From positions 4,898,001-4,962,000 of the forward strand of contig NZ_CP163528.1 in NCBI RefSeq assembly GCF_041081105.1: a stretch of DNA of 64,000 nt, given 5' to 3'. Numbering within the stretch: position 1 is the first letter of the stretch; each line of letters starts with the position of its first letter. Position numbers and translations under genes: made by a program. Positions 14,895-46,366 of the stretch are shown in pieces. Below the pieces are notes generated by a model that had not been told where the DNA came from, did not search any database, and saw only the letters and a list, made by a program, of their open reading frames with translations. This stretch comes from Promicromonospora sp. Populi. GTDB taxonomy: Bacteria > Actinomycetota > Actinomycetes > Actinomycetales > Cellulomonadaceae.

Positions 14895-16061
14895 GTGAAG
14901 ATCGCTGTTGTCGGCACGGGTTACGTCGGTCTGTCCAATGCGGTCCTGCTGGCGCAGCATCACGAGGTGTGGGCGCTGGAGGTGGACCCGGTCAAGGTGG
15001 CACAGGTCAACGACCGGGTCTCGCCGATCGCGGACCCGGAGCTGGAGGAGTACCTCGCCGGCAAGGAGCTGAACCTGACGGCGACTCTGGACAAGGACAC
15101 GGCGTACGCGGGTGCGGGTGTGGTGGTCGTGGCGACGCCCACCAACTACGACGAGGTGGCGAACTTCTTCGACACCTCCTCGGTGGAGTCGGTGGTCGAG
15201 GACGTCCTCGCGCGGGAGCCGGAGGCGCTGATCGTCATCAAGTCGACCGTCCCGGTGGGGTTCACCGAGCGGATCCGCGAGGAGTACCCGGGTGCCGCGA
15301 TCGTCTTCTCCCCGGAGTTCCTGCGCGAGGGCCGGGCGCTGTACGACAACCTGTACCCGTCGCGGATCGTGGTGGGCGACCGGTCGGGGCGGGGCAAGCT
15401 GTTCGCCGACCTGCTGCTGGAGGGTGCGCTGGCCAAGGACGTGCCGGTGCTGCTGACCGGTCCGACCGAGGCCGAGGCCATCAAGCTGTTCGCCAACACA
15501 TACCTCGCGCTGCGGGTCGCCTACTTCAACGAGCTGGACACCTACGCGGTGACGCACGCCCTGGACCCGGCGCAGATCATCGAGGGTGTGGGCCTGGACC
15601 CGCGGATCGGGTCGCACTACAACAACCCGTCCTTCGGCTACGGCGGCTACTGCCTGCCCAAGGACACCAAGCAGCTGCTGGCCAACTACGCCGACGTGCC
15701 GCAGAACCTGATCAACGCGGTGGTGGAGGCGAACACCACCCGCAAGGACTTCGTGGCCGCCGACATCCTGCGCCGCAACCCGAAGACCGTGGGCGTCTAC
15801 CGGCTCGTGATGAAGGCCGGGTCGGACAACTTCCGGGCCTCCAGCATCCAGGGCATCATGAAGCGCATCAAGGCCAAGGGCGTCGAGGTCATCGTCTACG
15901 AGCCCACCCTGGACGAGGACGAGTTCTACCACTCCGAGGTGGTACGGGACCTGGACGAGCTCAAGTCGCGGGCCGACGTCATCATCGCCAACCGTCGCAC
16001 CCAGGCGCTGGACGACGTCGCCGAGAAGGTCTACACGCGCGACATCTACGGCCGCGACTGA
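14895..16061 (+). CDS. ugd: UDP-glucose 6-dehydrogenase
   Basis: A 388-aa NAD-dependent enzyme that oxidises UDP-glucose twice to UDP-glucuronate. The Rossmann motif GTGYVG is at 7-12, STVPVGFT at 118-125, and the catalytic Cys253 lies in [13 protein letters not shown]. The short length and sequence such as [20 protein letters not shown] are close to the E. coli Ugd type as I recall it. GTG 14895 is chosen because the protein then begins at VKIAVVG, with TGGAG upstream; longer readings add an unconserved leader. It opens the surface-polysaccharide locus, supplying an acidic sugar donor, and is followed 44 nt later by rmlB. Confidence 0.93.
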
Positions 16062-16105
16062 CGCCCGAGCCCTACCCGCCGCGAGCCCTACCCAAGGAGA
16101 CAGCC

Positions 16106-17101
16106 ATGCAGGTCCTGGTCACCGGCGGCGCCGGTTTCATCGGCGCGAACTTTGTGCACCAGACGGTGCGCGAGCGCCCCGAGGCGCAGGTGACCGTGCT
16201 CGACGCCCTGACCTACGCGGGTGACCGCTCCTCGCTCGACGCTGTCGCAGACCGGGTGGAGCTCGTCGAGGGCTCGATCACCGACGGGCCGCTCGTGGAC
16301 CGGCTCGTGGCTCAGGCCGACCTGGTGGTGCACTTCGCGGCGGAGTCGCACAACGACAACTCGCTGAACGACCCGTCGCCGTTTGTGCAGACCAACCTCG
16401 TGGGCACCTTCACGCTGCTGGAGGCGGTGCGCAAGCACGGGGTGCGGTTCCACCACATCTCTACCGACGAGGTCTACGGGGACCTGCCGCTGGGCACCGC
16501 GGAGAAGTTCACTGCCGAGACCCCGTACAACCCGTCGTCGCCGTACTCGTCGACGAAGGCGGGCTCCGACCTGCTGGTCCGGGCCTGGGTGCGGTCCTTC
16601 GGGGTGCAGGCCACCATCTCGAACTGCTCCAACAACTACGGGCCGTACCAGCACATCGAGAAGTTCATCCCGCGCCAGGTCACCAACCTGATCGACGGCG
16701 TGCGCCCCCGCCTCTACGGGGCAGGCCTGAACGTGCGCGACTGGATCCACGTCGAGGACCACAACTCCGCCGTCTGGACCATCATCGAGAAGGGTGCGGT
16801 CGGGGAGACCTACCTGATCGGGGCCGACGGCGAGACGAGCAACCTCGATGTGGTGCGGACCCTGCTGGAGATCTTCGGGCGGGACGCCGGCGACTTCGAC
16901 CACGTGACCGACCGGCCGGGACACGACCTGCGCTACGCGATCGACGCCTCGCGGCTGCGCGACGAGCTGGGGTGGGCGCCCCGGTACACCGACTTCCGGG
17001 AGGGGCTGGCGGCGACGGTCGACTGGTACCGCCGGAACGAAGAATGGTGGCGCCCGGCGAAGGCGGCGACCGAGGCCAAGTACGCGGCCTCGGGACAGTA
17101 G
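16106..17101 (+). CDS. rmlB: dTDP-glucose 4,6-dehydratase
   Basis: A 331-aa extended short-chain dehydrogenase making dTDP-4-keto-6-deoxyglucose in the dTDP-rhamnose pathway. TGGAGFIG at 6-13 binds NAD. TDE at 120-122 is the catalytic triad of this subfamily, and Tyr147/Lys151 form Yxxx[10 protein letters not shown] and [15 protein letters not shown] are typical. The ATG at 16106 has AAGGAG upstream. Its stop is 1 nt from the convergent rmlC stop, so the two genes share essentially no terminator space. Confidence 0.94.
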
Positions 17102-45174: not shown

Positions 45175-45295
45175 TGCGACTTTCCCCTCTGTCCGGCGGT
45201 TGGTCAGGGCCTACGAGCTTCGCCCCTGAGGGCGCCCTCCGGTTGCGGTGCAGGCCCCAGAGTAGTAGGCGAACTCGCCACTAGGATCATCGGCT

Positions 45296-46366
45296 ATGGC
45301 CGCACCCGATCGCATGGGCGATCTCCTCGCCGCACCAAACCCGGTCGACAGAGACCTCCGGCACGCCCGGCGCACCCGGCGGAGCAAGGGCTTTGCCGCC
45401 TGGTTCGTCGTCGGTGCGCTCCTGCTCGTCGGCGGTGGCGGGACCGCTGCCTACTTCGGCTACCGGATGTCGCTCGACAACAACCTGGAGCGGCTCGACC
45501 CGTTCGCGGAGATCGAGCCGTCGACGCGGCCGACCGCCCCGCCCGTGGCGGGCCCGACCGCACCGGTGAACATCCTGGTGCTCGGCTCCGACAGCCGGAT
45601 CTCCGCCGGCGACCCCTCCGCATGGGAGGCCGGGGCGCAGCGCACCGACGCGATCATGCTGGTGCACCTGTCCGCCGACCGGCAGTCGGCTGCTGCGATC
45701 TCCATCCCGCGCGACTCCTGGGTGCCCATCCCCGGCCACGGCGAGGCGAAGATCAACGCCGCCTTCTCCTACGGCGGCCCCACGCTCATGATCCAGACGG
45801 TCGAGGACCTCACTGGCGTGCGCATCGACCACTTCGCCGTGACCGACTTCGAGTCGTTCACGTCCCTGACCGATGCCCTGGACGGCGTCGAGATCACCGT
45901 GCCCGACGGCGAGGGCGGCTCGGTGCGGCAGGCGATGACGGGCGAGGAGGCGCTCGCCTTCACGCGCGAGCGCTACGCCCTGGCGAACGGCGACTTCGGC
46001 CGCGTGCAGCGGCAGCAGGCCTGGATGCGGGCGATCGTCGCGAAGGTCAACAACAACCGGAGCGACCCCCTGCGGATGACCCGCTTCTTCGAGGCCGTCA
46101 CCAGCTCGGTGGCGGTGGACGAAGCGCTCACCATCGACCGGATCCAGGAGCTGTTCGAGAGCGCCCGGGACCTCTCGACGAACGACATCACCTTCATGAC
46201 TGCGCCGTACACGGGCACGGGGCGCAGCGCTGACGGTCAGTCGATAGTCGTGCTGGACCGCGCCGTGTTCGACCCGCTCATGCAGGCCGTGGCCACGGAC
46301 GAGGTGCCGGACTTCCTGGCCGGCACGCCCGAGGGCCTGGACCTGCTGCCCGCAGTGGTGCAGTAG
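45296..46366 (+). CDS. LCP family glycopolymer-peptidoglycan ligase (copy 2)
   Basis: A 356-aa LytR-CpsA-Psr protein with a basic tail, one membrane helix near 33-54 and an extracellular LCP domain: [57 protein letters not shown]. It is highly similar to the copy at 19646-20728 over the whole domain. It is divergent from the last glycosyltransferase across 121 nt, and its stop is 3 nt from the convergent mutase stop. The pair brackets most of the locus. Confidence 0.92.
   Translation: MAAPDRMGDLLAAPNPVDRDLRHARRTRRSKGFAAWFVVGALLLVGGGGTAAYFGYRMSLDNNLERLDPFAEIEPSTRPTAPPVAGPTAPVNILVLGSDSRISAGDPSAWEAGAQRTDAIMLVHLSADRQSAAAISIPRDSWVPIPGHGEAKINAAFSYGGPTLMIQTVEDLTGVRIDHFAVTDFESFTSLTDALDGVEITVPDGEGGSVRQAMTGEEALAFTRERYALANGDFGRVQRQQAWMRAIVAKVNNNRSDPLRMTRFFEAVTSSVAVDEALTIDRIQELFESARDLSTNDITFMTAPYTGTGRSADGQSIVVLDRAVFDPLMQAVATDEVPDFLAGTPEGLDLLPAVVQ

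Follow-up and report, generated by a model that had tools for sequence, protein, structure and literature searches.

Candidate genes for a sulfated teichuronic-acid-type wall glycopolymer in Promicromonospora sp. Populi

The genome of the soil-type bacterium Promicromonospora sp. Populi (G000) is a single contig of 5,224,924 bases (NZ_CP163528.1). A cell-surface glycan cluster lies within the 64,000-nucleotide stretch analysed here, called the window (G000:C1:4898001-4962000), and extends from the UDP-glucose 6-dehydrogenase gene ugd (14895) to a phosphoglucomutase gene (48169). For two of the cluster's proteins, the closest named homologues come from Promicromonospora. The gene set for an acidic wall sugar chain looks full, and the chain is probably decorated with sulfate. 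A sequence-only reading had proposed a sulfated, pyruvylated, wall-anchored acidic glycan pathway. Its account of the gene content was borne out as a whole by Pfam and NCBIfam, which identified Ugd, RmlABCD, WecB, WecC, an ABC-2 exporter, two LCP proteins, a GSCFA protein, five glycosyltransferase (GT) proteins, and two sulfotransferases recognised by Pfam. Its interpretation as a sulfated wall glycan is partly supported and was not refuted by the checks that were run.

Two routes to uronic acid donors are encoded. Ugd (14895..16061, + strand; PF03721/00984/03720), for UDP-glucuronic acid (UDP-GlcA), passes TIGR03026; its best NCBIfam model, PRK15057, gives 610 bits, under the cut-off of 757. 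The second route comprises WecB, a UDP-GlcNAc 2-epimerase (38872..40083, -; TIGR00236, 457 bits, cut-off 210), and WecC, a UDP-ManNAc dehydrogenase for UDP-N-acetylmannosaminuronic acid (UDP-ManNAcA; 25336..26589, +; NF008286, 599 bits, cut-off 459). RmlB (+), RmlC (-), RmlD (+), and RmlA (-), for dTDP-L-rhamnose (dTDP-Rha), occupy 16106..19519 and were confirmed by Pfam, RmlB also exceeding the TIGR01181 cut-off. The glycosyltransferases include a PF13524 protein (23439..25328, +), a 979-residue double-GT2 protein (26582..29521, +; two PF00535 stretches), a GT4-type protein (31049..32110, +; PF13692), and two further GT4-type proteins (42104..44964, -; PF13692/PF00534). A match of the double GT2 to chondroitin synthase (E 2e-16, residues 30-136) was rejected, as two other GT2 structures fit better. 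The exporter consists of an ATPase and a permease (40080..42120, -; PF00005, PF01061). The LCP ligases lie at 19763..20728 (+; PF03816, 136 bits; one N-terminal hydrophobic segment) and 45314..46366 (LCP2, +; PF03816, 138 bits). A single locus thus combines uronic acid donors, glycosyltransferases, an exporter, and an LCP ligase, the combination that marks a teichuronic-acid-type cluster.

Four proteins had been proposed to bear a loop for 3'-phosphoadenosine 5'-phosphosulfate (PAPS), and profile, fold, and neighbourhood evidence places them among the sulfotransferases. Two pass Pfam cut-offs, namely a Sulfotransfer_3 protein (36460..37137, -; PF13469, 55.6 bits, cut-off 27) and a two-domain fusion of DUF6270, which has an SGNH fold, with an NDST-like sulfotransferase (37142..38875, -; DUF6270 and Sulfotransfer_1/3). 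The other two, at 32140..33474 (+; start corrected from 32107) and 33475..34599 (-), matched no Pfam family at E<=0.01 and are assigned from fold and paralogy. These members of the orphan family are paralogues, 36% identical. Protein 32140 has a GAPKTGTT loop and an LR...S motif, and its C-terminal stretch (within 32140-33474) looks like a second sulfotransferase domain in shortened form; the copy in the relative G219 has 662 residues, with two matching stretches in one frame. Foldseek was ambiguous for 33475: sulfotransferases had probabilities of 0.90-1.0 with template-modelling scores of 0.3-0.4, F1-ATPases ranked first with a probability <0.5, and no match had E<=0.001. Structure comparison with VIA-align separated sulfotransferases from F1-ATPases and gave a sulfotransferase fold. 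An alignment profile of the orphan family matched PDB sequences weakly (best 3rnl, E 0.006; 3-OST5, E 0.012). In the 33475 family, K19 and R127 are found in 57/57 sequences and S135 in 49/57. The 5'-phosphosulfate-binding (PSB) loop and 3'-phosphate-binding motifs are also present in 32140, 36460, and 37142. Both the motifs and the fold of PAPS-dependent carbohydrate sulfotransferases are therefore found.

A genome search for PAPS synthesis genes recovered CysC, CysN, CysD, and a CysQ-like protein, so that a PAPS supply is encoded. The single adenosine 5'-phosphosulfate (APS) kinase, CysC, lies at 2.74 Mb and exceeds the TIGR00455 cut-off. CysN and CysD, also at 2.74 Mb, exceed theirs, and the CysQ-like phosphatase there scores below the CysQ cut-off. 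True CysC, defined as E<1e-40, occurs in 7/81 relatives of one genus, which suggests that the kinase is not needed for assimilation there. The cysNDQ/cysC genes are directly adjoined by a second glycan locus (G000:C1:2739600-2759200; L009:13647 to L010:14213). It encodes an ABC exporter, NeuB (Pfam), a DUF6716 glycosyltransferase, two pyruvyltransferase-family proteins, a NeuA-type protein fused to a KDN-9-phosphatase-like domain (below that model's cut-off), and a product with no Pfam match in which a sulfotransferase-like P-loop is seen by eye. As a side observation, the APS kinase (L009:16999-18339) has an N-terminal stretch of ~265 residues without a Pfam match, and CysC proteins in the relatives' loci that were fetched likewise have ~400-430 residues. 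In four relatives (G014, G068, G116, G087; L120, L121, L129, L134), cysC is adjoined by a membrane protein that looks, in our view, TauE/SafE-like.

The link between the orphan family and PAPS genes was followed across relatives. Among the 221 family genomes surveyed, the orphan family occurs in 25 and true CysC in 55, and all 25 holders of the former carry the latter (25/25). Both are on one contig in 19 genomes and within 30 kb in 17/19; in the remaining two, the window's own genome and G046, they are 2.2 Mb and 190 kb apart. In 6 further genomes, they lie on different contigs. In one genus, 5/5 holders have the two within 3.2 kb, and the gene order in G146 and G148 is cysC-ST-ST-ST-cysQ-cysD-cysN (ST, sulfotransferase). 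Among the matches listed from the named collection, the orphan family is also found on Streptomyces, Nocardioides, and Chloroflexi contigs. CysC or CysD is within 8 kb in 7 of the best 79 loci of that collection, two of the seven being Chloroflexi; CysN-only matches were left uncounted, since elongation factors can match. Local linkage, operons, and the within-genus count carry the argument and are stronger than presence or absence.

The cluster itself was compared with loci of G117 (listed in the window's genus), G105, G006, G087, and G219 of the same genus and of G068 and G110 of other genera. The flanks are conserved (LCP2, two GT4, the ABC pair, WecB, and the fusion; WecC and the glycosyltransferase at 23439), and the interiors differ in the fashion of serotype loci. 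In G117 and G219, nevertheless, most of the interior is syntenic, with proteins 73-92% identical, which argues that the gene set is not a chance assembly. Common to these two and the window are the double GT2, the pyruvyltransferase, GT4, 32140, 36460, and a PL8 lyase. The G117 locus lacks GSCFA and 35667; that of G219 lacks 33475 and has 35667. In G219 and in each of the six relatives whose fusion loci were mapped, the fusion adjoins wecB; as all loci except G219 were selected for carrying the fusion, its presence in them is no test. LCP2 stands beside the cluster in 7/7 relatives' loci mapped (G117, G105, G006, G068, G087, G110, G219).

The PL8 polysaccharide lyase gene (20765..23188, -; PF02278/08124/02884), inside the cluster, was missing from the sequence-only reading. 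Its product has an N-terminal hydrophobic segment and all three domains. Motifs with the Asn, His, Tyr, and Arg that we take to be catalytic are retained, as they are in the two close orthologues. The best PDB match is xanthan lyase (E 1e-145), with similarity over the full length and the catalytic motifs kept; unlike xanthan lyase, the window protein sits within a biosynthesis cluster and has the N-terminal hydrophobic segment. Among 13 genus genomes, close orthologues (at least 77% identity) are confined to G000, G117, and G219, as is the orphan family, and five others have homologues at 38-50% identity. PL8 enzymes cleave at O4 of uronates. Since the polymers of Promicromonospora sp. VKM Ac-1028 and Micrococcus luteus described below have 4-linked uronates, a lyase directed at the cell's own product is plausible.

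As for pyruvylation, the expected family gene is present (29523..31047, +), and its reading frame is broken at about 30,041-30,046. The downstream fragment alone scores 22.1 bits, under the PF04230 cut-off of 25.3, so the claim of a pyruvyl transferase stands for the family and not for an intact enzyme. The break is either a real lesion or an assembly error. Intact versions in G117 (515 residues) and G219 (505 residues) score ~46 bits over the second two thirds of the profile. A homologue is found in 8/15 orphan-family loci mapped (window included) and in none of the other 7; genes for sulfation and pyruvylation thus recur together often, not always.

Sulfated wall sugars are already known chemically in the genus. 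Promicromonospora citrea 665T has a sulfated, pyruvylated teichulosonic acid of 2-keto-3-deoxynononic acid (Kdn) in its wall (PMC6801904), a non-phosphorylated anionic polymer. It consists of Kdn and Glc, not uronate, and the relevant section of that review gives chemistry and no genes. The expected gene types are found at the 2.74-Mb locus, which may therefore hold candidate genes for a polymer of this type. The teichuronic-acid-like polymer of VKM Ac-1028, with 2,3-pyruvylated, 4-linked GlcA (PMC6801904), fits the Ugd, pyruvyltransferase, and uronate lyase of the window. ManNAcA, which WecB and WecC would feed, is a component of the M. luteus teichuronic acid (-4-ManNAcA-Glc-)n, for which the part of the source consulted mentions no sulfation (PMC3005890).

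The cluster probably builds a sulfated teichuronic-acid-type wall glycopolymer: the chain would be assembled and sulfated in the cytoplasm, exported by the ABC transporter, attached by LCP proteins, and trimmed by PL8. Gene content, sulfotransferase fold, the PAPS gene set, and its operon linkage to the orphan family in relatives form the computational basis, from which we infer the acceptor, the linkage, the order of steps, the attachment to the wall, and the substrate of the lyase. Ugd, WecB/WecC, and RmlABCD would provide UDP-GlcA, UDP-ManNAcA, and dTDP-Rha, for chain assembly on a lipid carrier by cytoplasmic glycosyltransferases. In the same compartment, ester sulfate may be added by three or four sulfotransferases that use PAPS supplied by the CysN/CysD/CysQ/CysC set at 2.74 Mb, namely 33475, 32140, 36460, and the fusion 37142. 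Export would then fall to the ABC pair and attachment to peptidoglycan to the LCP proteins, and the exported lyase may trim or turn over the chain at 4-linked uronates. Pyruvylation, typical of this glycan type, may be lost in this strain.

Several observations weigh against this proposal. The wall polymer of the strain is predicted from its genes, and the uronate polymer of VKM Ac-1028 is described without sulfate, its structure as given in the review having neither ManNAcA nor Rha (PMC6801904). CysC is present in 19/19 genomes with a PL8 homologue and in 13/13 genomes of the window's genus, whether or not the orphan family is present; its association with the orphan family by presence or absence (25/25, hypergeometric 5e-18) is thus inflated by kinship and was downgraded as proof. 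In the named collection, neither CysC nor CysD lies within 8 kb of 72 of the best 79 loci; the linkage thus recurs without being universal. PF01507 has two matches in the genome, CysD (2.74 Mb) and CysH (4.49 Mb). CysH bears CC and CxxC motifs, presumably those of an APS reductase, and scores higher with the APS-reductase model than with the PAPS-reductase equivalog model, both under cut-off; it also passes PRK02090 and TIGR00434, both named phosphoadenylyl-sulfate reductase. With this mixed call, the CysH point is suggestive only. In the fusion family, the Lys/Arg position of the PSB loop varies (R 23, K 5, H 4, Q 3 of 37). This variation, and the two P-loop proteins without a Pfam match, would fit some or all of these proteins being degenerate or using another donor, with no sulfation; the invariant K and R of the orphan family, its sulfotransferase fold, and its cysC operons make this very improbable.

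The PAPS genes, moreover, lie 2.2 Mb from the cluster and next to the other glycan locus, which contains a sulfotransferase-like gene too. Three further Sulfotransfer_3 genes are found elsewhere in the genome, so PAPS could serve other sulfotransferases. The window enzymes might likewise act elsewhere, on the Kdn-type polymer, a glycolipid, or a secondary metabolite, leaving the window polymer unsulfated. The gene content of the 2.74-Mb locus would agree with this, as does the published sulfate, which sits on Glc next to Kdn (PMC6801904). Yet the window sulfotransferases travel with the uronate cluster: in G117 and G219, sulfotransferases accompany glycosyltransferases, a pyruvyltransferase, and a PL8 that match those of the window, and the fusion stands beside wecB in the relatives, with the selection noted above. 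Such a role elsewhere is accordingly considered unlikely. Less likely still is a sulfated polymer that is released as a capsule or exopolysaccharide or remains lipid-linked, the LCP genes serving another polymer. LCP function is assigned here by family alone, and ABC export is common to capsules such as that of Cobetia marina KMM 1449, whose cluster combines dTDP-Rha genes, ABC export, cysNC-cysD-cysQ, and sulfotransferases (PMC11766843). That capsule belongs to a marine bacterium with kpsSC, and no LCP, lyase, or fusion is mentioned in the portion of the report consulted. Two LCP genes lie in the window cluster, LCP2 keeps its place in the seven relatives, and the genus is reported to have anionic glycopolymers bound to the wall (PMC6801904).

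A glycosaminoglycan-like system making a sulfated uronate wall polymer, in which the fusion is an NDST analogue with a different first domain (the SGNH half deacylating and the NDST-like half sulfating the freed position) and the cell's own PL8 sets chain length, is unlikely. The fusion differs from heparan sulfate NDST and 3-OST in its SGNH-fold partner, at 13-23% identity, and the NDST deacetylase domain is absent among the matches to DUF6270. No paper mentioning DUF6270 was found in the open-access literature searched. Separately, DUF6270 is joined to PF07940, which we take to be heparinase II/III-like, in proteins P0101 and P0109, and appears to be a general partner domain of glycan enzymes.

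For the preferred reading, a sulfated teichuronic-acid-type wall polymer, one precedent is the 2018 genome paper on Pontimonas salivibrio, an actinobacterium with a PAPS pathway and several sulfotransferases guessed to modify the wall (PMC6106888). The idea takes one sentence in the part consulted, which does not go into a locus, a polymer, or an enzyme family, and other Microbacteriaceae genomes reportedly have no such pathway. In the open-access literature searched, judged mostly from listings, no paper was found in which sulfotransferase genes are assigned to a Gram-positive wall polymer identified by name. The gene set is a candidate novelty, as are the orphan sulfotransferase family, the fusion of SGNH and NDST-like domains, and the lyase within the cluster. 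Candidate genes for sulfated wall glycopolymers would lie at both glycan loci of one genome, and one sulfotransferase family escapes Pfam. Tools to synthesise and cleave sulfated glycans could come from the fusion enzyme and the lyase.

The remaining cluster genes encode the GSCFA-family protein (34596..35663, -; PF08885, 163 bits), an unassigned protein (35667..36488, -) that matched nothing in Pfam or NCBIfam at E<=0.01 and looks SGNH-like on inspection, with a GNSH motif, and, in the conserved flank, the phosphoglucomutase/phosphomannomutase (46370..48169, -; PF02878-80). A phosphoglycosyl transferase had been named as a further genome check; two PF00953 proteins are present, one of them presumably MraY. 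Left of the cluster, a large GT8-family protein (8814-11480) has homologues, 45-46% identical, in sulfotransferase/ABC-exporter loci of G014 and G068 and may belong to the wall-glycan genes. At 62406-63878, the window encodes a bacterial protein with a weak lysyl-oxidase domain match (PF01186, 33.7 bits).
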